Shown here: positions 7,365-47,464 of the stretch, in pieces
How the letters are laid out: each line of letters opens with the position of its first letter
How positions within the stretch are numbered: position 1 is the stretch's first letter
Virus record (IMG/VR): IMGVR_UViG_3300047172_000109
Coordinates: 1 to 53,684 of that record
Length of the DNA: 53,684 nucleotides
Source: a virus
Strand: one strand, 5' to 3'
The notes under the pieces: model-generated
Seen by the model: the letters and a program-made list of their open reading frames with translations, nothing else
Databases searched by the model: none
Told to the model about the DNA's origin: nothing
Position numbers and translations under genes: made by a program

Positions 7365-7687
7365 AACGCTTTATCCCTCTCGCCGCCCTTGTCATGCTCG
7401 CCGGATGCGCCACGCCCGGCCCGTCCGCGCTCATCACCATTGAGTCCGCCGATGCCGCGGCGCTCGCCGGTCTGATTGCTTACGAAAAACTGCCCAACCC
7501 CAGCGCTGCGGTCATCGCCCAAGCCAAGGGGTATCAGGTGCAGGTGGACGCTGCCTTGGCACCGCTGGAAGCCGCCGCATCTGCCGGTGGCGACGTGACC
7601 AACGCCGCCGAACTTGAGGCCGCCAGCGTGGCTCTCACGGCGCTCACGACATACGAAACCGATCACAACATCAAACCAGGAGCCTGA
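7361..7687 (+). CDS. Small lipoprotein
   Basis: A 108-residue protein with a lipoprotein signal: MKRFIPLAALVMLAGCATPG has lipobox LAGC, so Cys16 should be lipidated and the protein anchored in the outer membrane. The mature part is alanine-rich and helical. Next to the endolysin and holin-like genes it could be an outer-membrane spanin partner, although the Pro-rich linker usual for o-spanins is absent. Confidence 0.65.
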   Translation: MKRFIPLAALVMLAGCATPGPSALITIESADAAALAGLIAYEKLPNPSAAVIAQAKGYQVQVDAALAPLEAAASAGGDVTNAAELEAASVALTALTTYETDHNIKPGA

Positions 7688-7689
7688 AT

Positions 7690-7914
7690 ATGAACATCAC
7701 CGCTAGAATGGTATGCGAGTCGGTAAAGCTTTTTCCGTCTTGCGAAACAGTAACCATGCGCGCAATTTGGTCTGGCCATCCAGAAGACAGCAACTATTCT
7801 TCGGCCACTCCAAATGGAACTTTTGAAATAACGGTTTCCAATGAAGCCATTTTCGGCGCGTTTAAGCCCGGATCGGTTTACAATTTCCTCATCACGCCAC
7901 ACGAAGGAGCCTGA
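7690..7914 (+). CDS. Small hypothetical protein
   Basis: A 74-residue protein three bases after the lipoprotein stop, apparently a small beta domain (TVTMRAIWSG, GTFEITVSN, VYNFLITPHEGA). Cytoplasmic by sequence. No family recognised. Confidence 0.55.
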   Translation: MNITARMVCESVKLFPSCETVTMRAIWSGHPEDSNYSSATPNGTFEITVSNEAIFGAFKPGSVYNFLITPHEGA

Positions 7915-7918
7915 CGCC

Positions 7919-8110
7919 ATGCCCGCACTCGCCGAAATCCTTGCGCTGCTACAGGTGGCGCAGACACTCTACCCGGTTCTCGCCGCCGCCGTGCCGGTCA
8001 TTGAAAAAGCCCTGCAAGGCCAGCCGCTCACCGATGAAGACGCCGTGACCGTGGCGACGGCGCGCCAAGCCCTTGAAGCCATCGCGTTTCCACCCTCCGA
8101 GGAGGCTTGA
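7919..8110 (+). CDS. Small helical protein
   Basis: A 63-residue protein; ATG 7919 follows GAAGGAGCC. The first half (LAEILALLQVAQTLYPVLAA) is strongly hydrophobic and helical, the second acidic. It could be a short membrane-associated protein of the lysis cassette or an oligomeric helical bundle. Confidence 0.5.
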   Translation: MPALAEILALLQVAQTLYPVLAAAVPVIEKALQGQPLTDEDAVTVATARQALEAIAFPPSEEA

Positions 8111-8111
8111 A

Positions 8112-8402
8112 ATGCCTCGAGCTGATAGCGTTGGCGGGGGAGGCGGGGGCAACTCCCCGCCTCTACCACCGTGGGAAAAGCGCCTAGAAGAGTTGCTTTT
8201 GGCCGAGGCGCTGCTGTTGGCCGATCTCATCTACATTCGCTACGCGATCAACAAACTTGCTGGCTTGTTTGAGAAGTCTCAAAACGACGGCTTGTTGCCG
8301 GGGCAACTGCAAGGCATTGCCGAGAGCCGCGCGTTGAAATTTTCTCATAAGAAGACTCTTTATGAGTTGGCGGAAAGGGTTAAAAATCATGGCAAGGGAT
8401 GA
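8112..8402 (+). CDS. Hypothetical helical protein with Gly/Pro-rich N-terminus
   Basis: A 96-residue protein with a strong ribosome site (GAGGAGG, 8098-8104). A GGGGGG...PPLPP linker leads to leucine-rich helices (RLEELLLAEALLLADLIYI) and a basic C-terminus. No family recognised. Confidence 0.55.
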   Translation: MPRADSVGGGGGGNSPPLPPWEKRLEELLLAEALLLADLIYIRYAINKLAGLFEKSQNDGLLPGQLQGIAESRALKFSHKKTLYELAERVKNHGKG

Positions 8403-8616
8403 AATCCAGGGACAATTACCGTTAGTGGAACGCGGGCACAACTTTAGGGAACCCCAGCCAGATCGACTAAGCTCGTTTGAGGAACGCCTGAACCTCTTCC
8501 TCCATGAATGCCAGCATGGGAACATTAGTTTTGTTGAAAAAATTAGGCATTTGGGGCGGCTGGCAGAAAGTTCCGAGGATATGGAAAAACTCATAGACAA
8601 GCTACGACGTTACTGA
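8389..8616 (+). CDS. Small hypothetical protein
   Basis: A 75-residue charged protein overlapping the preceding gene by 14 bp. It is helical throughout (SFEERLNLFLHECQHG, DMEKLIDKLRRY). No function can be assigned. Confidence 0.55.
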   Translation: MARDEIQGQLPLVERGHNFREPQPDRLSSFEERLNLFLHECQHGNISFVEKIRHLGRLAESSEDMEKLIDKLRRY

Positions 8617-8639
8617 GGTTTGTTTGACTGGAGAATAAA

Positions 8640-9095
8640 ATGGTTGAAGATGCTGGACATAGCCCAATCAACACCTCGCACGATTTTCAACTAGGCATTG
8701 TTTTTGCAAGACTCGACGGCGGCGATAAACGCATGGATGGGCTTGAACAGAAAATGAGCGATTTTGGGAGGGAATTGGAACAAGTCAACTCGACCATCAT
8801 AAAGGTCAAGGATGACATGGTGCATGAGGTTAAATTGGCTCTTGATTTGCAAACTCAGGAGCTGAAGCCAGTGCTTACCGAGAAGATGGTCCGCGATGCC
8901 AACGCCCTGGCCAAAAAGCAGCGCCAAGAAGAGGCCTCAAATTTCTGGTCGCGGGCCTTTGCCATAATTTCCATCTGCAGTGTGCTGGCCGGTGCGGCAT
9001 TCAGCCTCATGACGTATATTTACAAGGCCCCAACGATACAAAATCCTCTCCCTGTTCACAATGTAGGAGCCCATAAAGATGGCGGAAATAATTGA
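8640..9095 (+). CDS. Coiled-coil protein with C-terminal transmembrane helix (XhlA/holin-like)
   Basis: A 151-residue protein: a polar start, a heptad coiled coil (about 25-65), then one transmembrane helix (FAIISICSVLAGAAFSLM, about 107-124) near the C-terminus. This resembles haemolysin XhlA-type proteins and other membrane proteins that help holins. GGAG precedes the ATG. The role in lysis is inferred from topology and neighbours. Confidence 0.5.
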   Translation: MVEDAGHSPINTSHDFQLGIVFARLDGGDKRMDGLEQKMSDFGRELEQVNSTIIKVKDDMVHEVKLALDLQTQELKPVLTEKMVRDANALAKKQRQEEASNFWSRAFAIISICSVLAGAAFSLMTYIYKAPTIQNPLPVHNVGAHKDGGNN

Positions 9096-18808: not shown

Positions 18809-20295
18809 CAAGGATTTCTCTCCAGCAGGGCTTCTATCAGAGCCGCAGCTTCATCGCTAACGCGCAGAGGTGCCTCAATCTCTATCCCGAAGGCGGGACG
18901 GATGATGCGCCATCACCAACGACTTGCTATCCTACGCCGGGCCTTACGCTGATTGGAACAAATACCCCTGACTTCCAAGTAAGGTGTTTGTACACCGCCT
19001 CGAATGGCGTGCTGTTTGGAGTTATTGGTGCCAATGTTGGGTATTTTAACTCGGTCTTTAAGTGGATACAATTTGGTACTTTGCCGACGAACAGCGGCCC
19101 CTGCTATATGAAGGATAATGGTATTGATGTAGTGCTCATTGATGAAAGCACCTTTGGTTATTCGTGGGCCTTAAATAACTACAGTACCTTTGCGCAGATA
19201 AACGATCCGACAGGATTGTTTGTCGGAAGTGTAAATGTGGAATTTTTGGACTCATACTTTTTGTTTAGTGTCCCAAACACGGCGCAATTTTATTGTTCCC
19301 TAAGCAACAGCTTGACCTTTGATCCGCTCTATATTGTCTCAAAAAACGGCTCGCCTGATTTTGTAGCGTTTCTGGCCGTTTGCCAGCGTTATATTTGGGT
19401 TTTAGGCACCAAAACAACTGAGCTGTGGTATGACGCCGGGGCGACACTTTTTCCCTTTGGGGAAGTTCAGGGAACATTCTTCCAGCATGGCTGTGCGGCC
19501 CCGGCAAGCGTGGCGGTGAGTGACACTCATGTATGGTGGTTGGGGCAAGATGCCCAAGGCCAGGGCGTTGTCTATAATGGCTCAAATGCTCAGGTCACGC
19601 GAATAAGCACCCATGCCATTGAGCAAGTGATTAGTGGATTTATTCAAATTTCTGATGCTATTGGCATGACCTACCAGCAGCAAGGGCATACTTTTTACTT
19701 ACTGACGTTTCCAGCGGCTGATAGGACTTTTGTTTGGGATGACTCGGAGCAACTTTGGCATGAGCGCTGCTGGATGGATGCCAACGGCTTTGAGCATAGG
19801 CACAGAGCCAACTGCATGGCGAATGCCTATGGCAAGGTTGTTTGTGGGGATTGGGAAAATGGGAACTTGTATGAACTTGATCTCAATAACTACACTGATA
19901 ATGGCGCGCCCATCAAACGAGTGCGGGGTTTTCCACACCTTCCTACCAGCTATGACCCTAAGACTGGCCTGAGCCATCTTGAGGGAAAACGCATCAGGTA
20001 TGACCAATTTATTGCTGACTTTGAGGCCGGAGGAACTCCAGAGACGGAGTTGTTTGCCCCTGTGGGCGCTCCAGTGGTTGTGGCAACGCCGACCCTGACG
20101 ATTGCGTTTGTAGGGCCTCCAACGACGGGAACATTTGGCGTGCCCTTGGCATTTGAGGGCACAGTTTTCTACCCCGAAGATGCGGTGCAAATTGCCTTAG
20201 GCACTAGTCCAACTGTCGCGCCGACAAGTGGTTGGGTTAATGCTACGGTGCCTGGTGATGGAACATGGAGCGGCGTTTTGACGCCGGGGAGTTAA
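18805..20295 (+). CDS. Tail hub protein, P22 gp10-like, N-terminal part
   Basis: A 496-residue protein. RCLNLYPEGGTDDAPSPTTC, repeated strands such as SGPCYMKDNGIDVVLIDEST, and RYIWVLGTKTTELWYDAG are typical of gp10-type packaged-DNA stabilisation proteins (beta-propeller tail hub). After RIRYDQFIADFEAG, where homologues run into a C-terminal ISLRWS domain, this protein instead has an Ig-like domain (VPLAFEGTVFYPEDAVQIAL...) and stops. The missing C-terminal cassette is encoded at 21526-21978. Probably one functional hub now made from separate chains. Confidence 0.8.
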   Translation: MTRISLQQGFYQSRSFIANAQRCLNLYPEGGTDDAPSPTTCYPTPGLTLIGTNTPDFQVRCLYTASNGVLFGVIGANVGYFNSVFKWIQFGTLPTNSGPCYMKDNGIDVVLIDESTFGYSWALNNYSTFAQINDPTGLFVGSVNVEFLDSYFLFSVPNTAQFYCSLSNSLTFDPLYIVSKNGSPDFVAFLAVCQRYIWVLGTKTTELWYDAGATLFPFGEVQGTFFQHGCAAPASVAVSDTHVWWLGQDAQGQGVVYNGSNAQVTRISTHAIEQVISGFIQISDAIGMTYQQQGHTFYLLTFPAADRTFVWDDSEQLWHERCWMDANGFEHRHRANCMANAYGKVVCGDWENGNLYELDLNNYTDNGAPIKRVRGFPHLPTSYDPKTGLSHLEGKRIRYDQFIADFEAGGTPETELFAPVGAPVVVATPTLTIAFVGPPTTGTFGVPLAFEGTVFYPEDAVQIALGTSPTVAPTSGWVNATVPGDGTWSGVLTPGS

Positions 20296-20297
20296 AA

Positions 20298-21284
20298 ATG
20301 ACGCTTTCGATACTCTGGGCAGATGGGTTTGATAACTACAATAACGCTGTGGACTTGGCTACGGAGTACGCGCAGATTGGGTATTACAATGGTTTTGGTA
20401 CGGGGAGAACTAACGGCAAGTGCATCGTCGGAAGAAACGGCTATCTGGTTTATCAGAACTTGCCCGCGGAGTCGGACCTTACGCTTGCTGTCGCGGTGCA
20501 GCCAACATCGACATCGGTTGGTTTTGTTTTCACTTTTAGGGATATTGTCTCTGGTGACATCTTGGCGACGTTTGACTTTTCCAATACAAACCTTGTAGTT
20601 TTTACCTGCGCCAGCGGTTCGTATCAAACAGCAATTCCACTTTTGCCACAAAATAACTGGTCGCACTTGCAATGTCGGGTCCAGTCTGGAGCCAGTGGCA
20701 GTTACACAATTATGCTCAATGGCACATCGACGATTGCTTCAGGCTCGGGGTTAAACATAACGGGTTCCAGCGGAACCATTACGACGATGAACGCGGTTTA
20801 CCTGACAGGCGGTGGTGGCGGTGGGGAGTTGGATGATTTGCTTATCTGTACCGGGGGGCTGCCTGGAGATTGTCGGGTACAGACGGATTTTCCAATCTCC
20901 AACGCGAGTGTGCAGTTTACTCCTCTGGCCAATACGAACTGGCAAGAGGTTAGCGAGACTTCGATGGATGGGGATACATCGTATAACTCAAGCTCTACGG
21001 TGGGGCAAACAGATACCTTTAATTTCACTCCACTGTCTGTGCCTGCCGGGAGTACCATTATTGCGCTTTTTGTGCGAACCGCGGCGGCAAAAACTGATGC
21101 GGGTTCACGCTCGTTGCAGAATAAGATAGTTTCGGGAAGTAACTCTGCCCTGGGCACTTCTGTAGGATTGAGCACGAGCTATGAATATCAACAGGATAAT
21201 TTTACCTCGTTTCTCTCAGGTTTGGGGTTGCTGACACAGAGCGGGATTAACAGCACCACCATTGGATATACGTTGTCAGCATGA
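20298..21284 (+). CDS. LamG-like beta protein inserted in the hub locus
   Basis: A 328-residue protein with GGGGAG before ATG 20298. LSILWADGFDNYN followed by a jelly-roll-like pattern (LTLAVAVQPTSTSVGFVFTF; SHLQCRVQ) and GGGGELDDLLICTG is typical of phage concanavalin A/LamG-like tail proteins that bind glycans. It lies between the two parts of the gp10-like protein and overlaps the next gene by 4 bp. Probably a tail-tip adhesion protein. Confidence 0.6.
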   Translation: MTLSILWADGFDNYNNAVDLATEYAQIGYYNGFGTGRTNGKCIVGRNGYLVYQNLPAESDLTLAVAVQPTSTSVGFVFTFRDIVSGDILATFDFSNTNLVVFTCASGSYQTAIPLLPQNNWSHLQCRVQSGASGSYTIMLNGTSTIASGSGLNITGSSGTITTMNAVYLTGGGGGGELDDLLICTGGLPGDCRVQTDFPISNASVQFTPLANTNWQEVSETSMDGDTSYNSSSTVGQTDTFNFTPLSVPAGSTIIALFVRTAAAKTDAGSRSLQNKIVSGSNSALGTSVGLSTSYEYQQDNFTSFLSGLGLLTQSGINSTTIGYTLSA

Positions 21285-30076: not shown

Positions 30077-31564
30077 TTAGGAAAAAACTTTATTAAGGCC
30101 TGTGCGTCGTTCGCGATGGTCCTCTCCTTTCCATTTCATCAAACCATCGGGGTTTTTGTTGGGATCAAAGTTGGCCCAATTCCAGCCAACCTTGGCCTCG
30201 CCTGGGACTACGAGGGTGCGGCCCTTGGCAGATATGTCAACTCTCATGCACTCCAGGGCCTGAGCGATGATGGCCCCGGTCGGTTCGCTCTGGTGGAATT
30301 GGAAAGTCACCGAGTCATGAGTTTGGGCCAACAGTTGAACGGTTTTGCCAAGGGTTTTCCATATTTTCCAAAGTCCCAGGTTTGTCCTATCGGCTGTAGA
30401 ACTCTGGGGGGAGTAGGCTATTGCCTCGCGCAAAGTGGTGTCGTCATTGACACGGCCAAAGAAGTGCCTTTTGCGTTCAAAAGGCGTCACAAGGTAGCCT
30501 AGGGTTTGAATTTGCTGTGCGATCCATTTGTGCCAACGAGGGATGCCAGGGTAGGCTTTGAAATAGGCGCTTTGGAAATCTTCCATGAGCTTGACGGGGA
30601 CCTTGAGGTGACGCGCCATTGTGAAGGGTTTGCCGTAGTAGTTTGAACCGTGGCCTCCACGTTTGCTCATATCGCGCCGGGAGTATTCTCGGTAGAATTG
30701 GCTGTCGGCAAGGGCTCGGTCCCCTTTAGCATCACCGGGCCAGGGCAAGTTGGGCCAAATGAGTTTGGCCGTAGTGGTGTGCAAGTCCCCGGCATAGCAG
30801 GCATCAAGGTAGGTCCAATCGTCAAAAAGAGTCCCGCAGAGCCAACCAACCTCGCGGCTCTCAGCTTGCTCAAGATCAATGACGCAGAGCTTGTATTCCG
30901 GGTCGGCGATAAAAATGCGCCGAAGGCCCGGTGCTATGTTCTGGAGATTTGAGCCCGTGCCGTCGGCAGAGGCACTGCTGCTCCAGCGCCCGGTTTCAGT
31001 ACCAGCAATGTTATAGCTCGTTCGCATCCGGCCATCAGCCGAGACCTCAGTTTCAATGACCGAGAGTTGCTTAGCGAGATCCCTGTATGCAAGGACTGTC
31101 GAGATGATGGGCCTGGCATAATAATGGAGTTCGAGCTTCTCGAGGGCATCACGATTTGTTGAAAGCTTTCGTTCGCCTTTTGCCGAGGCATATTGCTTGG
31201 GCAAGCCCATAACCTCGTAGAGAAAGGTCTTCATTTGCTGGGGTGATCTGGGATTGAGGCCCTTGTCCCAGACAGCCTTGGCAAAACGATCGAGCAGAGC
31301 TAAGAGTTTCTCCATGTCCCCCTTGAGGCGCTGGGCAAACGCTCTTCGCTCGGTCTCGTCAATGGCAAAGCCCCTTTGCATGATTTCCAAAACCGGGGCC
31401 TGAAGGGCAAGAGCAAACCTATATGAGATAGGCTCTTGGTTGTATGTGCGTTTTAGCTCCTCATAAATCTCCAATGTAAGCATACAATCTAAGCCATTGT
31501 AGATTTGGTGGTTCTCGCGAAGGACCTGGTCCTGCACCAACTCATGGGTGAAGAAGTCAGTCAT
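30077..31564 (-). CDS. Family A DNA polymerase, polymerase chain
   Basis: A 495-residue protein. It has T.TGRWSSS and NLQNIAPGLRRIF (189-217), motif A VIDLEQAESREV (D230), motif B RRDMSKRGGHGSNYYGKP (297-313) and motif C THDSVTF (H416, D417, S418; most relatives have HDE). The first 35 residues contain YNGLDCMLT, which is exonuclease motif III, while motifs I and II are on the separate protein at 32222-33262. A good promoter (31598-31626) and AGGAG site show it is expressed as its own chain. It replicates the phage genome. Confidence 0.9.
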   Translation of the reverse strand: MTDFFTHELVQDQVLRENHQIYNGLDCMLTLEIYEELKRTYNQEPISYRFALALQAPVLEIMQRGFAIDETERRAFAQRLKGDMEKLLALLDRFAKAVWDKGLNPRSPQQMKTFLYEVMGLPKQYASAKGERKLSTNRDALEKLELHYYARPIISTVLAYRDLAKQLSVIETEVSADGRMRTSYNIAGTETGRWSSSASADGTGSNLQNIAPGLRRIFIADPEYKLCVIDLEQAESREVGWLCGTLFDDWTYLDACYAGDLHTTTAKLIWPNLPWPGDAKGDRALADSQFYREYSRRDMSKRGGHGSNYYGKPFTMARHLKVPVKLMEDFQSAYFKAYPGIPRWHKWIAQQIQTLGYLVTPFERKRHFFGRVNDDTTLREAIAYSPQSSTADRTNLGLWKIWKTLGKTVQLLAQTHDSVTFQFHQSEPTGAIIAQALECMRVDISAKGRTLVVPGEAKVGWNWANFDPNKNPDGLMKWKGEDHRERRTGLNKVFS

Positions 31565-31591
31565 GGAAATTGCTCCTGGAGGGGCTCTGAG

Positions 31592-31924
31592 TCAGCAATG
31601 ATACAACCTCCTAAAGACAATGTCAATACCCAAACTTTGAGCATGGTCCATCCCAAGTTTCATGCCGGGGCTTATCCCCAAATCAGTGTAAACTGCCAGG
31701 AGTTGGCACTTGGCACGAAAGGCCGAGGCGCACTTGAGCCCAAGCAGGCGTTGATCGTATTTTGTATCGTCGAGAACCTGGGTATAGAGAAGATGGCTTG
31801 CAAAGGGGGCTTCGCCTTTGACGATACTATCGAGGAGGGCCTCTAGCGCGTAACGGGAGTTTTTCTCAATGTCTCCTGCGTAAGGGGACTCGATGAATAC
31901 AAGTTTAGGTAACTCTTGGTCCAT
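31592..31924 (-). CDS. DUF7768-like protein (deoxyribosyltransferase-like fold)
   Basis: A 110-residue protein; ATG 31924 is chosen because GGGAG lies 7 bases upstream and the product begins MDQELPKLVFIESPYAGDIE. The pattern FIESPYAGD..KN..YA, APFASHLLYTQ and VYTDLGISPGM matches short phage proteins related to nucleoside 2-deoxyribosyltransferases. A role in nucleotide metabolism or modification is likely but unproven. It lies between the two polymerase-related chains. Confidence 0.75.
   Translation of the reverse strand: MDQELPKLVFIESPYAGDIEKNSRYALEALLDSIVKGEAPFASHLLYTQVLDDTKYDQRLLGLKCASAFRAKCQLLAVYTDLGISPGMKLGMDHAQSLGIDIVFRRLYHC
31598..31626 (-). promoter_or_regulatory. Sigma70-like promoter of the polymerase gene
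   Basis: On the minus strand TTGACA, a 17-bp spacer and TATCAT, lying in the last codons of the upstream gene and about 35-60 bp before the polymerase ATG. This is one of the best promoter matches in the window. Confidence 0.75.
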
Positions 31925-32207
31925 TTTTGGGCTCCCTTTTATGCTGGCCATGTTTGCGGAGATGATACCAGTAGTTGTAGCAGGACTTGCATAAGCCACG
32001 TACTTTGGCAGGGACTTTTTCATCTCCGTGGTTTGGGCATAGCTTGACCAATGCTTTTGGATTGGTCTCGGTGGAATAAATTCCTCTTAGGCGTTCGCGC
32101 TCGTAGTGATTTGTGCAGAGTCCTCGAACTCGAACAAACTTTGAGCAGCCCTCTACTGAGCAAAGATCCCCCTTGGTAACTTTGCGGGGTGGAAGTGGTT
32201 CATTCAT
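31905..32207 (-). CDS. Zinc-binding protein with duplicated Cys/His modules
   Basis: A 100-residue basic protein. CSVEGCSKFVRVRGLCTNHY and CPNHGDEKVPAKVRGLCKSC are two related four-ligand modules, each ending RGLC..(C/H)Y, like the zinc-binding part of phage HNH proteins. No HNH catalytic core is present, so I would not call it an endonuclease. GGAGG ribosome site 14 bp after the exonuclease gene. Confidence 0.7.
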   Translation of the reverse strand: MNEPLPPRKVTKGDLCSVEGCSKFVRVRGLCTNHYERERLRGIYSTETNPKALVKLCPNHGDEKVPAKVRGLCKSCYNYWYHLRKHGQHKREPKNGPRVT

Positions 32208-32221
32208 TGGTTTGAACCTCC

Positions 32222-33262
32222 TTATTCATCGGCTTTGACCGTGTCTTGCTTGGCGGTACGCATGAGCTTCCATGCAGGTTCATCGGTATAGATGCTCCCA
32301 AGAAAGCCAAGGCCCTTTTGAAGTTCTGGAAAAAGGGCGTGGTGCAAGAGCATAGTGTCGGCCGCACAGTTCCTGGGCCTAATGCCCATCTTGCAAATAT
32401 ATTGCAAATCATAAAGCCCATTTTGAAATAGCTTTAGCATAGGCTTCTCGAGCATCTCTTTGATGAGGGTCCAAACCTTGGCCTCGGTCTCCACGTTTGG
32501 CCAATAGCTTTCCCAAGAGTTACTAATTACCAGGGGCACAACCAAGCCATAGTTGCGCCGCGCGGCGAAGCCAATTTCAGTGATGGTCCCGCGTGCGGTT
32601 TCAATATCAACGCTCAAAATCGAATGGTCTTGGGAGCAAAAATTCCTAACCTCATCAAATGTTGGGTTGACCGTCACGGTGCGTTCTGGACGCCTTACAT
32701 CGGGAAAGGCTCGCTCTCGCGATGCTTTCATAAAATCCGCGATGACGATAGGGCGTAAGGCCCACTGGCGAAGCACAGCCGCCGGGTGATAGGTGGGGAG
32801 AACCTTGAAGCCCCTTGAGTCATACCTTACGGCACCGCGGAGAGACCCAATTTTGGCAGTACCCAAAACAGCCCAACAAGCAGTATTGCCCAGAGCAATG
32901 ATGAGATTAGGGCGAACAAGAGAAAGCAAAGAGCGAAGTCTTTCCAACTCGGGTAGATGGCATTCTTTGATATATTTTCCGAGTCGGAGTGGTGGCTCCG
33001 CCACTCCTCCCAATCCTGCGGCGGTTTTTGCATCAAAGTACTCCTCTATGTTGTTTCCCGGTGGTCGAGAGTTGAATACATTGCATAGGAGACAATCGCG
33101 CCGCAAGATACCTCCTTCGGAGAGCATTTGCGTTAGTTCTTGGCCGGAGGCGCCTTGGAAGGGCAGTCCGGTGAGTTCCTCCTGTTGGCCCCAGGCCTCG
33201 CCGACAATGACGACTCGAGCGTTGTGGGGGCCTTGGGTGTGGGCAAAGAGAGACTCATTCAT
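32222..33262 (-). CDS. Uracil-DNA glycosylase (family 4-like) fused to polymerase 3'-5' exonuclease domain
   Basis: A 346-residue fusion. Residues 15-185 resemble family 4/5 uracil-DNA glycosylases: VIVGEAWGQQEELTGLPFQG, Cys pairs (CLLCNVFNSRPPGN) fitting a 4Fe-4S cluster, and LPTYHPAAVLR. Residues 215-340 are the DnaQ-like domain of family A polymerases: SVDIETARGTITEIGF (D219, E221) and FQNGLYDLQYI (N281, D285), ending KGLGFLGSIYTDEPAWKLM. Exonuclease motif III is absent and lies on the polymerase chain. The fusion links uracil removal with proofreading. It overlaps the upstream gene by 4 bp. Confidence 0.85.
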   Translation of the reverse strand: MNESLFAHTQGPHNARVVIVGEAWGQQEELTGLPFQGASGQELTQMLSEGGILRRDCLLCNVFNSRPPGNNIEEYFDAKTAAGLGGVAEPPLRLGKYIKECHLPELERLRSLLSLVRPNLIIALGNTACWAVLGTAKIGSLRGAVRYDSRGFKVLPTYHPAAVLRQWALRPIVIADFMKASRERAFPDVRRPERTVTVNPTFDEVRNFCSQDHSILSVDIETARGTITEIGFAARRNYGLVVPLVISNSWESYWPNVETEAKVWTLIKEMLEKPMLKLFQNGLYDLQYICKMGIRPRNCAADTMLLHHALFPELQKGLGFLGSIYTDEPAWKLMRTAKQDTVKADE

Positions 33263-38802: not shown

Positions 38803-39048
38803 TCAGAGCCCCAAATCGTCTAAATTAACTGCTTGGACCTGGGCCTTGTCCATTGGCGCGGCCTTGGGGGCGCGTTTACGCGCAGCCTTGGGTTCGTTGT
38901 CAGTGAGGAGGAAATTCTTTCTCATGCGCCGGAGTTCCTCCACGATTTTTATGATGTCCTGTTCGCCGAGCTTGAGGGGATCACGCGAAAAGAGTTCGTC
39001 GAGGGAGGTCGGGACGGCCTCTTCGAGGGGATTGGCTTGTTCGGACAT
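38803..39048 (-). CDS. Small phage protein ending in LDDLGL
   Basis: An 81-residue protein. LDELFSRDPLKLGEQDIIKI is followed by VEELRRMRKNFLL, a conserved helix seen in many phages beside replication genes. A basic Lys/Ala linker leads to the C-terminal VNLDDLGL, the clearest instance of a C-terminal motif shared with the proteins at 41947 and 42502. Confidence 0.75.
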   Translation of the reverse strand: MSEQANPLEEAVPTSLDELFSRDPLKLGEQDIIKIVEELRRMRKNFLLTDNEPKAARKRAPKAAPMDKAQVQAVNLDDLGL

Positions 39049-39748: not shown

Positions 39749-40315
39749 TTAGTCGAGGTCCAAGTTGTCGAAAAGGTCCCCGGTTGCCGCCTTGGTTGCC
39801 TCGACGCGGCGCTCTGCTTCCTCGCGGATGGCCGGGTTTTTCTCCAGCAGGCCGGTGATGAGGCTCTCGAGCTTCCCCTCGGGCAGGTCCTTGATCTTGA
39901 TGCCCTTTTTCTGAAGTGCCTCCGTAACCATCGACTTGGCGATCTTGTGGGCCTCTTTGCCCACCGGATCGACAGGTGTGGCGATGCTGCGGCGTTTGCC
40001 CTGGAACTCGTAGCTCTCAGCGTAGGCCGTGAGTTGTGCCTGAAGTTCCGAAACATCCACCTCGGCACCGGCCTCTTTGGCCTGCTTGACGCTCTTGGCG
40101 AAGTTGTTGCGGAGGTTCTCGGCGTAGGTCTGGTTCAAGGCCGCAGCCTCGGCCGCGTTGATGGTGTAGCCGTCGTGGTAGGGGGAAGGAATGCGGAAGA
40201 CGATGTCCTGGATTGTGATTTCCTGTTCCTTGACGCCAGAGGCGTTGACGGGGGCTTCGTCGGTAGGGGTCTCGGCGTTCATTTCAGTGTGTTCCTTGTG
40301 TTTGGCCTTAGCCAT
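39749..40315 (-). CDS. Phage protein, paralogue of the protein at 559-1116
   Basis: A 188-residue protein; ATG 40315 has GGAG upstream and a promoter about 45 bp away. ITIQDIVFRIPSPYHDGYTI is followed by a long helix (YAENLRNNFAKSVKQAKEAG), then the region shared with 559-1116 (AHKIAKSMVTEALQKKGIKI; IREEAERRV) and an acidic end (DLFDNLDLD). No family name known. Two copies in one genome suggest an oligomeric or DNA-associated protein with two expression programmes. Confidence 0.8.
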   Translation of the reverse strand: MAKAKHKEHTEMNAETPTDEAPVNASGVKEQEITIQDIVFRIPSPYHDGYTINAAEAAALNQTYAENLRNNFAKSVKQAKEAGAEVDVSELQAQLTAYAESYEFQGKRRSIATPVDPVGKEAHKIAKSMVTEALQKKGIKIKDLPEGKLESLITGLLEKNPAIREEAERRVEATKAATGDLFDNLDLD

Positions 40316-40361
40316 GATGGTGTTCTCCGGTTTGATGGCGCGGCATCGCGCCGCATGTATG

Positions 40362-40390
40362 GTATGACATGGCACCGCCGGGGTCGTCAA
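40362..40390 (-). promoter_or_regulatory. Sigma70-like promoter upstream of 40315
   Basis: On the minus strand TTGACG, 17 bp and TCATAC, followed by a second CATACA. It belongs to the group with CATAC(T)-type -10 boxes seen at 42786 and 53444, and lies just downstream of the palindrome at 40450-40484. Confidence 0.6.
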
Positions 40391-40449
40391 GCCCTATGTG
40401 TTGAGGATTGCCATTATTTTTGCGTGCCAATGGGCGGCGCGGCAGCTCT

Positions 40450-40484
40450 CTCGTCCCACCTTAGATTGATAAAGGTGGGACGAG
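40450..40484. repeat. 35-bp palindromic element, copy A (after the pilin gene)
   Basis: Near-perfect: TCTCGTCCCACCTT (40449-40462) pairs with AAGGTGGGACGAGA (40472-40485), a 14-bp stem. It lies 10 bp beyond the Flp pilin stop and upstream of the promoter at 40362-40390. No U-tract follows on either strand, so it does not look like a standard intrinsic terminator. Confidence 0.85.
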
Positions 40485-40494
40485 AAACCGCGAC

Positions 40495-40647
40495 CTAAAG
40501 CTCAGATGAAACCTTGGCAAAGGTATTGCTGACGCCGTGGCCCAGGCTCGTCACCGCGCCGATGATGACGACAGCGATGAGCGCAGCAATGAGCGCGTAT
40601 TCGATGGCAGTGACAGCGCGGCGAGACTTGATGAAAGATGTAAGCAT
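40495..40647 (-). CDS. Flp/Fap-type (type IVb) pilin
   Basis: A 50-residue protein. After a short basic leader (MLTSFIKSRRA) comes the class III prepilin signature VTAIEYALIAALIAVVIIGA: Glu at +5 of a predicted cut after Ala11, then a 20-residue hydrophobic helix and a short tail (SNTFAKVSSEL). Flp prepilins are cleaved by a dedicated peptidase (CpaA/TadV) and polymerised by the Tad machinery. AAGGA lies 8 bases before the ATG. It follows the GHKL-ATPase gene and is followed by a 14-bp-stem palindrome. No other tad gene is present, so it would act with host machinery. Predicted -1 residue is Ala instead of the usual Gly. Confidence 0.85.
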   Translation of the reverse strand: MLTSFIKSRRAVTAIEYALIAALIAVVIIGAVTSLGHGVSNTFAKVSSEL

Positions 40648-40692
40648 GAGATTGGTCCTTGGTTTGGGTTAAGATTTTGGCGCTATGCGTCC

Positions 40693-41931
40693 TCAGAGGG
40701 GCTCTCCGAGTATTTCCTCCTGCTGGGAGAAAATTTTGTTAAAGAGAAAGTTTTGCAAGTCCCTTGAGCCATCTGCCCAGCCGTGCTCGAGGTGCAGGTA
40801 TTCCTCGTAGAGGGTCGCGGCGAGGAATTTGGTTCCAAGGTCGAAGCATCCGCGGGCAATCCAGATCTTTTCATCCTTGGCCAAGCCGTAGATGTTTTTG
40901 CCCAGTTCTTCATAGAAGTCGATTGGGAAGGTGATCTTGACTCCCATGTTTTCGATAAACGCCTTGGCCTTCTCAAGCATCTTGAGCTCGAGTTTGCTTG
41001 GGCTGTAGGGTTTATACCTCATAGCCTTGTCAAACCTCTCCCGCCGGAGGTAGGCTTTCAAACCATCGGGGAGTTGGTCCATGCCCTTGCGCTTGAATGC
41101 CTTAAGGACCGCCCGGTCGAACTGGCCGTCCTCGGGGAGGTAGGATGATACGTTATTCCAGGGCAAGTCAAACTCTGCAAACAGCGGCGAGGTGAAGAGC
41201 TCGTAGAGAAAGTCCTCGGAGCAATTTTGGCTCAGCTGGTCGACGAGGCACTGGTTGACCCAATAACTATCAGCCGTGCGATCCTCGCTCAAGGTGAGTT
41301 TGGTCTTGGTGTTGTAGGTCCACTTGTAGGGTTTCTCCGTCCTTGAGTGTACTTTGATGTTTTGGTAAAAGAAGGCTTGGTTTTGCCCTGCGTGGATGTC
41401 AAACTTGGGGAAACTCATGTAGGGTTCGCTGTCGAGGAGGAACTTGCCTCGCGTTGCGTGAACCTCGGTGAAGGCCGCGCCCTCAACGTAGATGCGCGTG
41501 GAGTCAAGGTCAGGGATTTCATACTTCCCGCAGGAAAAAACCAGGCCATTTTCATCCTGAGCGTTGGACCAAAGCTCGCGATAGGCCATCCAGAGTTCCC
41601 AATTTTTGCCCAGCTCGGTGGTGAAGCCCAAGGGTTGGGAGATGCTTGGCACAACGCCTAGCTCGCGGTTGGGGCCTTGGCGTTTGAAGGTTTGCATGTG
41701 GATGACGGAGAAATTCTTGCCCCTCACGTCAGTATCGACGAGGGAGAACCTATAGCTCAGTTCGTCGGTTTCGATGGAAATACGCTGTTCGAGGCGCAGG
41801 CACACCGCGATGGCATATTTGAGCCCCGTGCCGAAGTGGCCAATGGGATTGGTTAAGCCGGGCTTGACGTTGACGCCCATGAGAGTGATGACGTTGGGAT
41901 TGATACGGCCAGGGTTGCTGAAGCAGATCAT
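40693..41931 (-). CDS. GHKL-type ATPase protein with zincin-like C-terminus
   Basis: A 412-residue protein. GRINPNVITLMGV and NPIGHFGTGLKYAIAVCLR (29-46) look like ATP-binding motifs of the GHKL fold (G.FG.GLK). The middle is mixed alpha/beta. The last 40 residues contain LYEEYLHLEHGWADGSRDLQ (EEYLH at 376-380), similar to a zincin helix in which the first His of HExxH is replaced by Tyr. I do not know a described function. ATP-dependent remodelling plus a degenerate protease site suggests a host-takeover or counter-defence protein. Confidence 0.65.
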   Translation of the reverse strand: MICFSNPGRINPNVITLMGVNVKPGLTNPIGHFGTGLKYAIAVCLRLEQRISIETDELSYRFSLVDTDVRGKNFSVIHMQTFKRQGPNRELGVVPSISQPLGFTTELGKNWELWMAYRELWSNAQDENGLVFSCGKYEIPDLDSTRIYVEGAAFTEVHATRGKFLLDSEPYMSFPKFDIHAGQNQAFFYQNIKVHSRTEKPYKWTYNTKTKLTLSEDRTADSYWVNQCLVDQLSQNCSEDFLYELFTSPLFAEFDLPWNNVSSYLPEDGQFDRAVLKAFKRKGMDQLPDGLKAYLRRERFDKAMRYKPYSPSKLELKMLEKAKAFIENMGVKITFPIDFYEELGKNIYGLAKDEKIWIARGCFDLGTKFLAATLYEEYLHLEHGWADGSRDLQNFLFNKIFSQQEEILGEPL

Positions 41932-41946
41932 TTATTTGTTCCTAAG

Positions 41947-42261
41947 TTAGAGACCAAGATCGTCGAGGGATAGGGTTTGTGCCTTGTTGATGGTGGGAAG
42001 GCGTTTTTGCGGCAGCGGCGGATTGAGGTAGTTTTCATAGGCGGCTACCAAGGCCGCCATTGGCGTTTGCGCCCTCCCGGCAGCGTAGACTTTGTTGCTG
42101 ACGTGGGGGCGCGGTGTTGAAAGTGAGCAATAGAATTTGGTTTCAGGAGTTGGTTGGATGTCAGGGTTCCAACGCCAAAAGCTGTGGATGTAGAGAGACT
42201 GCTCTTCGAGCCACAAAATTGCCTGCTCGAAGTCTTTTGGCATCTCACCTGGGTGGGGCAT
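41947..42261 (-). CDS. Small protein ending in LDDLGL
   Basis: A 104-residue protein (DFEQAILWLEEQSLYIHSFW; TPMAALVAAYENYLNPPLPQ) with C-terminus TLSLDDLGL. It overlaps the upstream gene by 17 bp. Family unknown; the C-terminal motif matches those at 38803 and 42502. Confidence 0.65.
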   Translation of the reverse strand: MPHPGEMPKDFEQAILWLEEQSLYIHSFWRWNPDIQPTPETKFYCSLSTPRPHVSNKVYAAGRAQTPMAALVAAYENYLNPPLPQKRLPTINKAQTLSLDDLGL

Positions 42262-42505
42262 TGCAACCTACTCCCTCGAGGCCTGCCTCGCGGATTTCCT
42301 TCCTGGTCGCGTAGCGCAACTCAATGCTCTTGTATTCTGTAAACGGGCCGTCTGGCCCAAATTGCACTACATAATACCAGTTGATGGCTGGGTCGCCCGG
42401 TTTGAGAATAAGCTCACCAGCGAGGCCGATGCTGCCGTCGGAGCAAACAACTATGTAATTGGTGAACATTCCAGAGATTTGGAAGTTGCTTGTCAAACGA
42501 GTCAT
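42245..42505 (-). CDS. Small hypothetical protein
   Basis: An 86-residue beta-rich protein (MFTNYIVVCSDGSIGLAGEL; WYYVVQFGPDGPF; a basic helix RYATRKEIREAGLE). It overlaps the upstream gene by 4 bp. No family recognised. Confidence 0.6.
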   Translation of the reverse strand: MTRLTSNFQISGMFTNYIVVCSDGSIGLAGELILKPGDPAINWYYVVQFGPDGPFTEYKSIELRYATRKEIREAGLEGVGCNAPPR

Positions 42506-42756
42506 AGCCCCAGGTCCTCCAAACCCAGGTGTTTGCCACCGAAAGGGAACCTCTTGTCGAGAAGACTAAACCCCGGCTCAGCCGTGTTTGCCAGGGCGCG
42601 TTTGAGCGCCCCCTCTGCGGTGTCGCTATCGGCCTGGAGGAACATGAGGTTTTCGCTGCGGAGCGATGCGCGCCATGAGTAGGCGTCGAGTTGGGAGAGG
42701 TTGTTGATGAACCATCCGGCGGAGTTGATCTCTTTTATTAACTTTTCTAATTCCAT
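42502..42756 (-). CDS. Small protein ending in LEDLGL
   Basis: An 84-residue protein; AGGAG precedes ATG 42756. LEKLIKEINSAGWFINNLSQ then WRASLRSENLMFLQADSDTA looks like a helix plus small beta sheet. The C-terminus LGLEDLGL belongs to the shared motif group. First gene behind the promoter at 42786-42814. Confidence 0.65.
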   Translation of the reverse strand: MELEKLIKEINSAGWFINNLSQLDAYSWRASLRSENLMFLQADSDTAEGALKRALANTAEPGFSLLDKRFPFGGKHLGLEDLGL

Positions 42757-42785
42757 TGAAAGGCTCCTGTTGAGTTGACGCGGCA

Positions 42786-42814
42786 AGTATGGCATGGTTG
42801 TTGTGGAATGTCAA
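42786..42814 (-). promoter_or_regulatory. Sigma70-like promoter
   Basis: On the minus strand TTGACA, 17 bp, CATACT. It overlaps the stop of the gene at 42811-43149 and drives 42502-42756 and genes beyond, probably to the pilin. Confidence 0.75.
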
Positions 42815-43149
42815 CCAACTTGGTTGGATAATAGGTCCCAGGCTTCTTTGATGCAAGTTTGGCAAACGGGTCTGGAGCTGTACCTTTCGCCCATTTCCAC
42901 AGCGCGCAGGGTATATGTTGAGCAAAATGTGCAGAAACTGTGTGTCCATGAATTATTGCCTATGGCCTTGGCGATTTGCTCGATGGTAGCATCATCAGGC
43001 AAAAGCATCAGTGCAAGATAGATGTTTTCCTTGCCGTGGTCATACCATTTTGGCTTAGGGATATCCTTGTAGTATTGCCTTTTCCATCTTTCAGCAATAG
43101 TAGAAGGTCGTGGGGAGTTACTAACGAGCCGTACATACTCACCTCTCAT
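42811..43149 (-). CDS. Hypothetical zinc-ribbon protein
   Basis: A 112-residue protein. CTFCSTYTLRAVEMGERYSS then CQTCIKEAWDLL gives two CxxC knuckles. The N-terminal half is basic (RWKRQYYKDIPKPKW). Function unknown. Starts in a 4-bp overlap. Confidence 0.6.
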   Translation of the reverse strand: MRGEYVRLVSNSPRPSTIAERWKRQYYKDIPKPKWYDHGKENIYLALMLLPDDATIEQIAKAIGNNSWTHSFCTFCSTYTLRAVEMGERYSSRPVCQTCIKEAWDLLSNQVG

Positions 43150-43340
43150 GACTTTGCTCCCTTGGTCTTGGCCAAAACCTTGAGGGCCTCTCCCTCAAGG
43201 CCATTGGCGATCTTGCGCTCGGCCTCTTCGAGGATTTGGCGTTTGGCGCGCGCGGCTGTGAACTCGCCCTTTTTGTAGAGGGCAATAAATTGCTGGCGGC
43301 TTTCGGCCAGGGCGTTGTGGAGGAGGGTGTTGTTTGTCAT
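43146..43340 (-). CDS. Small helical protein
   Basis: A 64-residue charged protein with long amphipathic helices (ESRQQFIALYKKGEFTAARA; ILEEAERKIANGLEGEALKV). AAGGAAA upstream. Unknown. Confidence 0.6.
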   Translation of the reverse strand: MTNNTLLHNALAESRQQFIALYKKGEFTAARAKRQILEEAERKIANGLEGEALKVLAKTKGAKS

Positions 43341-43341
43341 C

Positions 43342-43578
43342 TCAGTTTCCTTGCTTTTGAAAAATCAAGTCTTTGCCCCTCCGAGAGATGCCAATGCTCT
43401 TCCAGGCAAATCTCTTGCGTTGCGCGCGGTAGCACGCAAAGCGAAAGGCTTGCGCCTCGGCCTCGGAGTTACAATGGACGCACAAGGTGCCCTGGAGGGC
43501 GAGATCAAAGTAAACCTCACGGAGGTCGCGGCCCTGGCAAGGGAGGGTTTCCTCAAACTTAATTGGCAAATCAGGCAC
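43342..43578 (-). CDS. Small hypothetical protein
   Basis: A 78-residue protein; GTG 43578 follows TTGAGG. DLREVYFDLALQGTLCVHCN then EAEAQAFRFACYRAQRKRFA, basic at the end. It overlaps the helicase 3' end by 8 bp. Unknown. Confidence 0.55.
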   Translation of the reverse strand: MPDLPIKFEETLPCQGRDLREVYFDLALQGTLCVHCNSEAEAQAFRFACYRAQRKRFAWKSIGISRRGKDLIFQKQGN

Positions 43579-45139
43579 TGATGAAATCCTCAAGGTTAGC
43601 GTGCAAGAGTATGTTCTTGCTACGAGTTTCTATGACATACCTCAAATTGTGCTCCTGCTCGATTTGGGAAGGGCTCTTGGCGAATTTGCTGGGCACGCGC
43701 CAGGGGTCCAGGTGGAGAACCACGTCCCACTCAAGGCCCTTGGCCCTATGCCCCGTGGCCAGCGTTACTTTCCCATACTCATTGGTGAAGAGGGCCTCGA
43801 GCTTGGCCCTGATCTCCCCGGCATTTTTGGCCCCAGAGGAGTCACAAACGGCCAGGAGGCACTCCCCCTTGTCGCGGACCTGTTCGGCCTTGCTTTCGCG
43901 TTTGTTTGCCTGGGCAAGAGAGATTTCCGAGTCCATCCACTCCTGGGTGGCCTGGGCACAAGTTCCCAGGGGCGTGTCGTCGAGAGGGAAGAGCTTTTTG
44001 CTCAGGACAATGAGGCCCTTGCCGAGGTCGCGCCCCAGCATGACGCAGCCGACTTGCGCGCGGATGAGTTTGAAAGCCATGCTCAAGAGCGGCGCATTGT
44101 TGCGGCAGAGGATTGCCAAGGAGCATTTGTCATGAGGCAGAGCCGCCAAGAGGTCCTCCTTAGTCCATTCGGGCTGCTCCCAAGGTTTGAGGTGGCCAAA
44201 GTGGCCGACCTTGTTGGTGTGGTATGCCTCAAAGCCGGGGGCATGTGCGCGCGAACGCTCAACGATGACTTGGGGGCATCGGAAGGTGACGCTCAAGGGC
44301 AATTCGATCCATTGCTCACGGAGGTTTTTGATCTTGGACATCGAGGCGCTATCGGCGCCCCTGAATGAGTAGATGGCCTGTTTGGGGTCGCCGACGACGA
44401 TGAGACGATCGGCCGCGCTGCGCTTGAGCATGATGTGGTTAAGGGGACTGAGGTCCTGAGCCTCGTCCACGATGACCACAGGGAACCTGGGGAAAATTCC
44501 CCCATAGATGGCGCTCATGTAGATTTGGTCGTCGAAGGAGATAGTGCCCTCGAATGAGAGGGCGATGCTCTTTTTGAGGATCACTTTGGCCACGTCGAGG
44601 AGGGTCTCGCTGACGTCAACTCCAGCGTCGTCGGCGATTTTTTGCCAAGAGTCTTTGGTGTCCTCGATGAGGCCTTGGTGGGGGTAGGGTTTGGGCACAA
44701 GGCCGAGTTGCATCGCCAAGGTTACGATGGATTTTAGGTTTCCCCAGGTTTCCTGATCCGTCTCAAGTTTGAGTTCCTTGAGAGTTGAGGTGATGAGCCC
44801 GGCAAGTTTTTGGGCATCGAGGTTGAGTCTCTTGTTGATGGCGCGCGCCCAGGCAGCGTGGCCGAGGCCGTTCATGGTTTTGACCTCGAAGTGCGGCGGG
44901 AACCTCTCCTCCAGGTCCTTTTTGTTTTTGACGTTGAAGGCCAAAGCAAGAGTCGGCTTGCCCTGTGGTAAGGCCGCGGCGAGCATCTCGAGGGTCGAGG
45001 TTTTGGCACAGCCAGCGTAGGCCGTGACCATAATCGAGCGGCTGTCGTTGCGCGCAGCGTCGATGATGGCCTGCTGCTGGGGGCTCGGTGTGAGGGTCAC
45101 TTGTGGCCTAGTTTTGGGTTTGAGGTGGCCTTGGGGCAT
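43571..45139 (-). CDS. SF1 (UvrD/PcrA-type) DNA helicase
   Basis: A 522-residue protein. Motif I AYAGCAKTST (40-49), motif II DEAQD (225-229), motif III GDPKQAIYSFRGAD (250-263), motif V TGHRAKGLEWDVV and a final RYVIETRSK. GCAKT replaces the usual GSGKT. It unwinds duplex DNA 3'-5', probably for repair, recombination or origin opening. It is directly downstream of a HIRAN protein; HIRAN domains bind ssDNA 3' ends and often accompany SF1/SF2 helicases. GGAG before ATG 45139. Confidence 0.85.
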   Translation of the reverse strand: MPQGHLKPKTRPQVTLTPSPQQQAIIDAARNDSRSIMVTAYAGCAKTSTLEMLAAALPQGKPTLALAFNVKNKKDLEERFPPHFEVKTMNGLGHAAWARAINKRLNLDAQKLAGLITSTLKELKLETDQETWGNLKSIVTLAMQLGLVPKPYPHQGLIEDTKDSWQKIADDAGVDVSETLLDVAKVILKKSIALSFEGTISFDDQIYMSAIYGGIFPRFPVVIVDEAQDLSPLNHIMLKRSAADRLIVVGDPKQAIYSFRGADSASMSKIKNLREQWIELPLSVTFRCPQVIVERSRAHAPGFEAYHTNKVGHFGHLKPWEQPEWTKEDLLAALPHDKCSLAILCRNNAPLLSMAFKLIRAQVGCVMLGRDLGKGLIVLSKKLFPLDDTPLGTCAQATQEWMDSEISLAQANKRESKAEQVRDKGECLLAVCDSSGAKNAGEIRAKLEALFTNEYGKVTLATGHRAKGLEWDVVLHLDPWRVPSKFAKSPSQIEQEHNLRYVIETRSKNILLHANLEDFISA

Positions 45140-45207
45140 TTTCAGTGTCTCCTTGTCTTTGATGACGATGCTGAGTGGTGGGCAGGTGCCCACCACAGGG
45201 GTTGAGG

Positions 45208-45672
45208 TTATTCTTGATCGAGGCACTCTTCGCAGGCATCTCCTTCCAATTCGACCTCGTTCTCGCCGCACACGTCACACATTATGGGCTCGTCCCCCAG
45301 GTGCTCCGCATCGCGCAGGGGATCATCCAGCTCGCAGAGGGGTTTGCCGTCTCCGGCAAAGGCCAAAACTCCGCCGAGGATGCCCTGGCACTTGTGGGTC
45401 TCGGTGCGCGCGACGTAGCCGAGGTGGAGGTCTGTCTCTTTGAGAAGTTCCTCGGGGGTTCTGCCGTAGTCCTCGAGTTGGTCGGTGATCTCGGCGAGGT
45501 AGCCCTCAACCATGTCATTGGGATCGCAGAGGACCTTGATGGCATTTTCGTCGTAGGGATTGGAGGGCTCGGGCTCGAGGCGCAGGTGCGCCCCGGCGGG
45601 CAGTCCGGCGAGGACGAGTTTGGCTGGTGGGCGGAAGTGCATTCCGACAATGGGAACGAGTGTTGCAGGCAT
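45208..45672 (-). CDS. HIRAN-domain protein with C-terminal zinc knuckle
   Basis: A 154-residue protein. PIVGMHFRPPAKLVLAGLP, LRLEPEPSNPYDENAIKVL and GYLA form the HIRAN pattern (NPYDENAI). The C-terminus CDVCGENEVELEGDACEEC binds zinc. HIRAN domains recognise ssDNA ends at stalled forks. ATG 45672 is preferred because GGAG lies 7 bases upstream. It is the first gene after the promoter at 45724-45752 and the operator-like palindrome. Confidence 0.75.
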   Translation of the reverse strand: MPATLVPIVGMHFRPPAKLVLAGLPAGAHLRLEPEPSNPYDENAIKVLCDPNDMVEGYLAEITDQLEDYGRTPEELLKETDLHLGYVARTETHKCQGILGGVLAFAGDGKPLCELDDPLRDAEHLGDEPIMCDVCGENEVELEGDACEECLDQE

Positions 45673-45778: not shown

Positions 45779-47464
45779 TTAGGTGTTGATAATCATTGGT
45801 GGGGGGTTAGTGCCAATGCTGGTCAAGGCGCCCGAAAAGGGCGCTGGGAGCGTTGAGCCGCTGCCGGTGGTGTAGAGCCCTGGCACAGGTATAGCGGCCG
45901 AGGTGAGGCCAAGGAGTAAGGAGTCGCCGCCAATGCTCAGGGATTTAACAGTGATGGCGGCGGAGGTGGCCAAGACCCGCCAATAGATGACGTTAGGCTG
46001 GAGGATGTAGGGGGTACCCACAGTACCTAAAATTGTGCCTGTGGTTGCGCCGGAGAGGCCGCTGGCGCTGGTGAGGGGCGAGCCGGTTGGTTGGTTGCCG
46101 CCGGAGCCTCCATTGTCGGCGTAGATGCCCACCGAAAAGGTGCTTGAGGCTACGGCGGTGCTGACATAAGCGCCGAGGTTGTTGATAGTGGTTGGCCTTG
46201 CCACCATGAAGGGATTGACATAAACCCTGTTGGCGACGAGTGCAAACGCGCTGCCGCTGAAGGTCGTGGTTGCGCCGAGGGCGTAGCAGCCGCCGATGGC
46301 TGATGCGAGCTGTACGGGGCCAGGGCCTATCGGCATGAAGCTGGTGTCGGCGAGGCCTAGGGTATTGGCCTGGATGATTTGGCCGGAGCTTACGGTGCCG
46401 GAGCTGATGGCTGTGGAGTTGGCGAGGATAGTGGCGATCGAGCCGCTGAGGCTCAAGGTCGCAGGGGCCAATGCGTTGAGGGTTCCGGCGCTGCCGATCG
46501 AGGTGCCCTGGTTCTCGATGACCAGAGCGCTTGAGCCGCCCCCGGCAGTAGCGCTGATGGTGAGGTTTGGGGACGTTCCGGAAAAGGTGATGTTGGTCCC
46601 GGAGTTGAGAGTTGAGGCTCCTTGGGTCGAGGCGCCGACAATGGCTTGAATGGTGCCGATGCCCTGAACATTGAGGGTTTGGCCACTCATGGCAAGGCTC
46701 TGCCCCAAAACAATCGCTCCCGAGTCACCACCAAAGCTAACGACGCCGCTGTTGGCGAGAGTTGGATTGGCGGTTCCGGTGAGGGTCAGCCCCGTTCCTA
46801 GGGTGACATTGCCGGTGCCGATGCTGGAGCCCGAGACTATCTCCACTAGGCCCTGGTTGACCGTTAGGGTTTGGCCCGACATGGTGAGGTTTGGGCCGAG
46901 AGTGATACTGCCGGTGTCGCCGCCGAAGGCCAACACGCCGGAGTTGCTCAAGGTGGGGTTGGTGGCCCCAGCTAAGGTTAGGCCCTGTCCCAAGGTTGCG
47001 TTGCCGGTGGCTGTAAGGGTGCCTTGAATGAACTCCTGGGCGCTGGCGCCCGCCGCGTTGAGGGTTTGGCCGCTCAAGCTGAGATTGGTCCCCAGGGTGA
47101 TGTGGCCGGTGGTGCCACTGAGATCGAGGAGGCCACTATTGGCCAGAGTTGGGTTTGTTGCCCCTGCCAAGCTGAGGCCCAAGCCTACGGTGGCGGTGCC
47201 GGTGGAGGCCAAGGTTCCCTGAAGCAACTCAACAATGCCTGACGAGCCACCGGAACCGCCTGTGGCGCTAATGGTGAGGTTTGGGCTTGTTCCTGACATA
47301 GTGATGTTGGTGCCAGGCACTAAGGTGGGAAACAGGGTTCCACTCTCAAAGACTCCGGTTGATCCACCGGAGCCGAAGGTGGATAATAGGGTCGCGAGGT
47401 TTTGCTCAATGGTCGTTCCGGCGACTACGATGCTTGCGCCGGTTATGTCGCCTTGTAGGGGCAT
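45779..47464 (-). CDS. Repeat-rich adhesin / tail appendage protein
   Basis: A 561-residue Gly/Ser/Thr/Leu-rich beta protein. Residues about 76-139, 142-204 and 205-268 are three repeats of one unit (LGL.LAGATNPTL.NSG, then G..G.I.LG.NL..SGQTLN). Before and after them are copies of a second unit (PGTNITMSGTSPNLTISATG; SGTNITFSGTSPNLTISATA) that also occurs in 47480-49027. The C-terminal 200 residues are non-repetitive and may bind the receptor. Encoded on the early strand, away from the late tail genes. AGGAA precedes the ATG. Confidence 0.65.
   Translation of the reverse strand: MPLQGDITGASIVVAGTTIEQNLATLLSTFGSGGSTGVFESGTLFPTLVPGTNITMSGTSPNLTISATGGSGGSSGIVELLQGTLASTGTATVGLGLSLAGATNPTLANSGLLDLSGTTGHITLGTNLSLSGQTLNAAGASAQEFIQGTLTATGNATLGQGLTLAGATNPTLSNSGVLAFGGDTGSITLGPNLTMSGQTLTVNQGLVEIVSGSSIGTGNVTLGTGLTLTGTANPTLANSGVVSFGGDSGAIVLGQSLAMSGQTLNVQGIGTIQAIVGASTQGASTLNSGTNITFSGTSPNLTISATAGGGSSALVIENQGTSIGSAGTLNALAPATLSLSGSIATILANSTAISSGTVSSGQIIQANTLGLADTSFMPIGPGPVQLASAIGGCYALGATTTFSGSAFALVANRVYVNPFMVARPTTINNLGAYVSTAVASSTFSVGIYADNGGSGGNQPTGSPLTSASGLSGATTGTILGTVGTPYILQPNVIYWRVLATSAAITVKSLSIGGDSLLLGLTSAAIPVPGLYTTGSGSTLPAPFSGALTSIGTNPPPMIINT

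Follow-up and report, generated by a model that had tools for sequence, protein, structure and literature searches.

A lone Flp-type pilin gene carried as accessory cargo by a podovirus of probable Acetobacteraceae hosts

The window analyzed here is the complete 53,684-nucleotide stretch of IMG/VR virus record IMGVR_UViG_3300047172_000109, from a podovirus with a P22-like portal. On its minus strand lies a 50-codon gene, with its ATG at 40647 and its stop at 40495, whose translation is MLTSFIKSRRAVTAIEYALIAALIAVVIIGAVTSLGHGVSNTFAKVSSEL. A preliminary description had placed a gene for an Flp prepilin at 40495-40647. The coordinates are right and the strand is corrected to minus; the plus-strand frame over the same positions is interrupted by a stop. 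The protein assignment holds as well. The translation matches Pfam Flp_Fap (PF04964) at 61.4 bits, against a curated cut-off of 32.2 bits (E 6.8e-17, positions 1-44 of the 46-position profile), and a PF04964 search of the whole record returns the pilin at E 1.2e-17. Using phmmer, the solved Caulobacter Tad pilins 8u1k and 8u2b are matched with E values of 2e-6 and 5e-6, respectively. A PHROGs search with the pilin gave no convincing match. Judged by these profile and sequence matches, the product is an Flp (type IVb/IVc) prepilin.

The leader, as read in the sequence, is short and basic with a prepilin cleavage site, and the protein has a single strongly hydrophobic helix. The predicted mature pilin comprises 39 residues, from V12 to L50. 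It has the glutamate at +5 announced in the preliminary description, next to a tyrosine at +6. The ribosome site that had been reported corresponds to an AAGGA motif (40656..40660, minus strand), 8 nt 5' of the pilin ATG. A search for a sigma-70-like promoter for the pilin gene found none. Directly 3' of the stop, a strong hairpin (CTCGTCCCACCTT...AAGGTGGGACGAG) occupies 40441..40490 on the minus strand, with a free energy of -33.9 kcal/mol and a z score of -7.0 relative to shuffled sequences. It has no T tract and is terminator-like by position only. Copies of the CTCGTCCCACC arm of this hairpin also lie towards the two ends of the record, at 168-211 (minus), 1531 (plus) and 53509 (minus). 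Including 40441-40490, 5 matches are observed at a maximum of one mismatch, versus 0.9 expected.

The upstream neighbor (40693..41931, minus strand, thus the same strand as the pilin) is located 45 bp from the pilin ATG and encodes a 412-residue protein of phrog_8203. This protein carries conserved GxFGTGLKYA, REL..N..DExG and TLxEExxHL motifs that resemble those of GHKL-type ATPases in altered order. The downstream neighbor (39749..40390, minus strand), kept in collinear relatives, is listed as 213 residues long and likely starts at an ATG near 40315. An accessory block of about 3 kb (40391..43570, minus strand), with the pilin gene at one end, separates this conserved gene from that of a UvrD-like helicase (43571-45271). 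In this part of the genome, otherwise dissimilar small proteins encoded on the minus strand at 38803-39048, 41947-42261 and 42502-42795 have in common a C-terminal tail, [NSG]L[DE]DLG[LI]. The same tail is found in proteins of a relative, G268, ending at 35731 and 32561, and LDDLL-type tails occur in other relatives. Docking to a replication protein is perhaps the shared role of this tail.

Five relatives (G268, G287, G259, G286 and G264) have kept the 213-residue and helicase genes. In the four whose block is continuous, variable genes fill the 2 to 3.4 kb between them. G268 is collinear with the window on both flanks of the pilin. Its counterparts of the 213- and 412-residue proteins, 46% and 36% identical, are also encoded side by side. 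The interval contains another, different small gene (MTEINNGGWAFPGVGQGVYWEGMTLRDYF...), after which, at the position of the window hairpin, comes a hairpin whose tail is rich in T. Because both flanks are collinear, contig chimerism at the pilin, a concern raised in the preliminary description, is rejected. An obligate functional link between the pilin and its 412-residue neighbor is rejected too, as homologs of the latter occur in other viral records without a pilin. The 37 viral records in which a related portal was identified contain no Flp pilin. Since the slot of G268 differs and none of these portal relatives carries a pilin, gene order and content indicate that the pilin is an accessory (moron-type) cargo gene in a variable slot. 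Its absence from the closest phage relatives means that it is not essential.

The phage itself encodes a terminase, a P22-like portal, a major head protein, a head closure protein and a lytic transglycosylase-type virion protein, as well as a primase, a split DNA polymerase, the UvrD-like helicase and exonucleases. The polymerase (30077-33262, minus strand) is divided over two ORFs, between which lies one resembling a nucleoside 2-deoxyribosyltransferase. No integrase domain was found in the window, which may be an incomplete record. In this possibly incomplete record, PF00437 (TadA-type ATPase), PF01478 (prepilin peptidase) and PF00482 (TadB/C) are absent, in agreement with the earlier statement that no other tad gene is present. 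Therefore, any processing of the pilin must use the host. Relatives of the window portal were detected in 8 of 200 genomes of Acetobacteraceae and in Acetobacter phage phiAX1. This distribution is compatible with a host in that group, and the sequences suggest that the phage probably infects acid-loving Acetobacteraceae.

The search for a bacterial donor, proposed in the preliminary description, points to the same group: the best bacterial matches to the window pilin are Acetobacteraceae/Acidocella pilins. Several of these adjoin tad genes. Others are chromosomal orphans, for instance between leuS and hopanoid-type genes (names read from the sequence), and six such Acidocella-type genomes have 2 to 6 Flp pilins each. 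The view that Flp pilins come from tad loci must thus be widened to include orphan pilins in the likely host group. One bacterial lone pilin (L013, about 7641-9089) has apparent tRNA-like repeats on one side and an integrase-like gene on the other, as read from the sequence, a setting that resembles a genomic island. The window pilin has an alanine at -1. Alanine occupies this position in 35/37 bacterial pilins from Acetobacteraceae-type loci versus 3/78 elsewhere, where glycine is usual (75/78). To judge from this distribution, the donor family is the most likely origin of the alanine. Acquisition of the pilin from an Acetobacteraceae-type bacterium belongs to our best explanation, to which, taken as a whole, we give an even chance.

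The closest viral homologs of the window pilin are found in two phages, G001 (78% identity) and G002 (77%). Genome-wide, the three phages have only a few weakly similar proteins in common. A sulfotransferase-like protein of the window (2249-2833, plus strand) has counterparts (34% and 31%) in both of the other phages. Fibre-like or tail-associated proteins (45779-47464, minus strand, and 20265-21284, plus strand) are similar to ones of G002 and G001; such likeness in otherwise different phages may reflect a shared host group. Between the mature pilins of the three phages, identity is 85-92% at the protein level and 71-74% at the DNA level, with 92% and 74%, respectively, for the window and G001. 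Pairwise dN values of 0.10-0.15 versus dS values of 1.4-2.3 argue for strong protein conservation. This contrast sums over host and phage history, and the two contributions do not separate with confidence. In a DNA tree, the window and G001 pilins pair (94/85) and G002 lies outside this pair, so that one or more captures are possible. The position of the pilin in the genome differs among phages. In G001, genes for small membrane-type products and possibly for lysis lie downstream of the pilin gene, as read from the sequence; Pfam gave no support for them. No integrase was found in G001 or G002. The pilins of the window, G001 and G002 share a histidine at +26 (LGHGVS) that is lacking in the bacterial pilins closest to them. 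The phage pilin keeps the core, and its differences from bacterial pilins lie mostly in the C-terminal portion, the end that faces outward in Caulobacter pili.

With a general Flp alignment as query, 43 viral loci were retrieved, giving 44 records with the window, some of which are short or prophage-edge contigs that may include host flanks. PF00437 and PF01478 are found in 0/44 of these records and PF00482 in 0/24. Within 8 kb of the viral pilins no tad core gene was seen, the only exceptions being single antisense ORFs that overlap the pilin. A large terminase was detected by one profile in 19/44 records and a tyrosine recombinase in 9/44. In a group of contigs (L123-L131, L133), the pilin is in opposite orientation between terminase/portal genes and an antiterminator; L135 and L137 are similarly arranged, though their terminase is a different one. 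Only 2 of the 60 assessable terminase relatives of the L123-L131/L133 group carry the pilin. Being sporadic, repeated and devoid of machinery, the lone viral pilin behaves as a recurrent accessory ("moron") gene, apparently acquired by phages time and again. Host contamination as a general source of the viral pilins is unlikely, as no record has the tested tad genes, whereas single short or pilin-ended contigs such as G003 may be host flanks. Searching cultured phages with the pilin by tblastn gave nothing and is uninformative, since plasmids likewise gave nothing, probably because of low-complexity masking. Distant blastn comparisons with cultured phages gave short chance-like matches only, and control matches were found in plasmids.

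The window pilin resembles Caulobacter PilA (8u1k, 8u2b) and the pilins of Acidocella tad loci in its leader, processing site, TAIEY core and length, and in having a variable C-terminal part. It differs from them in that its gene belongs to a phage in which none of the tested tad genes was found, and in its histidine at +26. In the Caulobacter Tad pilus, the Glu/Tyr pair at +5/+6 holds the core together and is required for assembly (PMC11067988). A Caulobacter strain that is not a host of phage PhiCb5 does not adsorb it; the PilA of this strain has four differences, two of them at positions in contact with the PhiCb5 maturation protein (PMC11067988). Phages that block type IV pili for superinfection exclusion are also known, for instance by means of Aqs1 of DMS3 or the Pf phage inhibitor (PMC11436027). 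Like the window pilin, these are phage genes acting, or here proposed to act, on host pili. They target pilus assembly, for example by inactivation of the PilB ATPase, whereas the window product would act as a pilin.

We propose, with roughly equal weight for and against, that the window carries an accessory phage gene for an apparently assembly-competent, Acetobacteraceae-derived Flp/Tad pilin that would alter host pili or the cell surface. The pilin would be made together with early genes, enter the inner membrane and be cleaved by a CpaA-type peptidase of the host. It would then join or compete with the host pilin in the host Tad machine. Most likely, processing and assembly by this machine would change or disturb host pili, either through an altered exposed face of the pilin or because pilus assembly and retraction are upset. 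The adsorption of pilus-dependent competitors would thereby be reduced (superinfection exclusion), or the surface of the infected cell otherwise changed. The benefit perhaps lies in the exclusion of pilus-dependent rival phages. We saw no sign that the window phage or its rivals use Tad pili, which counts against this explanation.

The pilin could also serve the infected cell, by raising or altering attachment, biofilm formation or surface sensing and so aiding phage spread without any role against rivals. We consider this distinctly less probable. It would suit those Flp-bearing contigs that are temperate, as suggested by the tyrosine recombinases, and the L127-type and L135-type pilins, whose opposite orientation near terminase genes is a typical moron position; a study of V. 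harveyi prophages classes their Flp pilin as an adhesion factor (PMC12482185). However, no integrase was found in the window, G001 or G002, and a benefit to the host counts less for a purely lytic phage. A recently captured bacterial gene without function for the phage would account for the sporadic presence among portal relatives and in the terminase relatives of another phage family, for the abundance of lone pilin genes in bacterial donors and for the lack of a firm clade of the three phage pilins. Yet the frame is intact, a ribosome-site motif and a hairpin accompany it, the gene recurs in dissimilar phages that invariably lack the tested machinery, and the window and G001 pilins are far closer in protein than in DNA. 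Such a passenger gene therefore seems rather improbable to us.

Two further readings appear weaker. The hydrophobic helix, of fitting size, might act as a lysis aid or metabolic inhibitor with the pilin fold as a mere scaffold, and the gene order in G001 would accord with this. Nevertheless, Glu +5, Tyr +6 and the leader, which matter for processing the pilin and assembling the pilus, are kept and the genome position varies among phages, which makes a membrane-active role very unlikely. The alanine at -1, correctly noted in the preliminary description, had been taken there as the mark of a slowly cleaved peptidase decoy. Such a substitution would stand out among Flp pilins outside the Acetobacteraceae group, but as the norm in the bacterial source family it is no sign of a decoy, and we find this reading scarcely credible.

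Flp pilins borne by prophages are already known as annotations. They are carried by prophages phi345 and phiGANI1709 of Vibrio harveyi (annotation only, 2025; PMC12482185) and by phiLM21-like prophages of Sinorhizobium (S. meliloti; annotation only, 2025; PMC12429752). In both cases the pilin belongs to a tailed (pro)phage, as here, in another host; it is treated as a virulence factor in the former and listed as cargo in a table in the latter. No further report of a phage-encoded pilin was found in the literature searched, which included few subscription papers and no bioRxiv preprints. As far as this literature goes, the new elements are an Flp pilin in an Acetobacteraceae-type podovirus, the recurrence of machinery-free pilins across many viral contigs, the evidence from the slot and the explanation of the alanine at -1. 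More tentatively, and with less confidence than for the window gene itself, lone Flp pilins might represent a widespread, repeatedly acquired strategy in which the host Tad machine is used to replace or poison the receptor pilus of rivals.

Known phage inhibitors of type IV pili target the assembly machinery. If our proposal is true, a phage-supplied pilin would be a different route to receptor change. The recurrence of the gene in dissimilar viral contigs makes the idea directly testable in Tad-positive strains. Even as a passenger, the Flp pilin would still mark a gene frequently involved in exchange between phages and their hosts.
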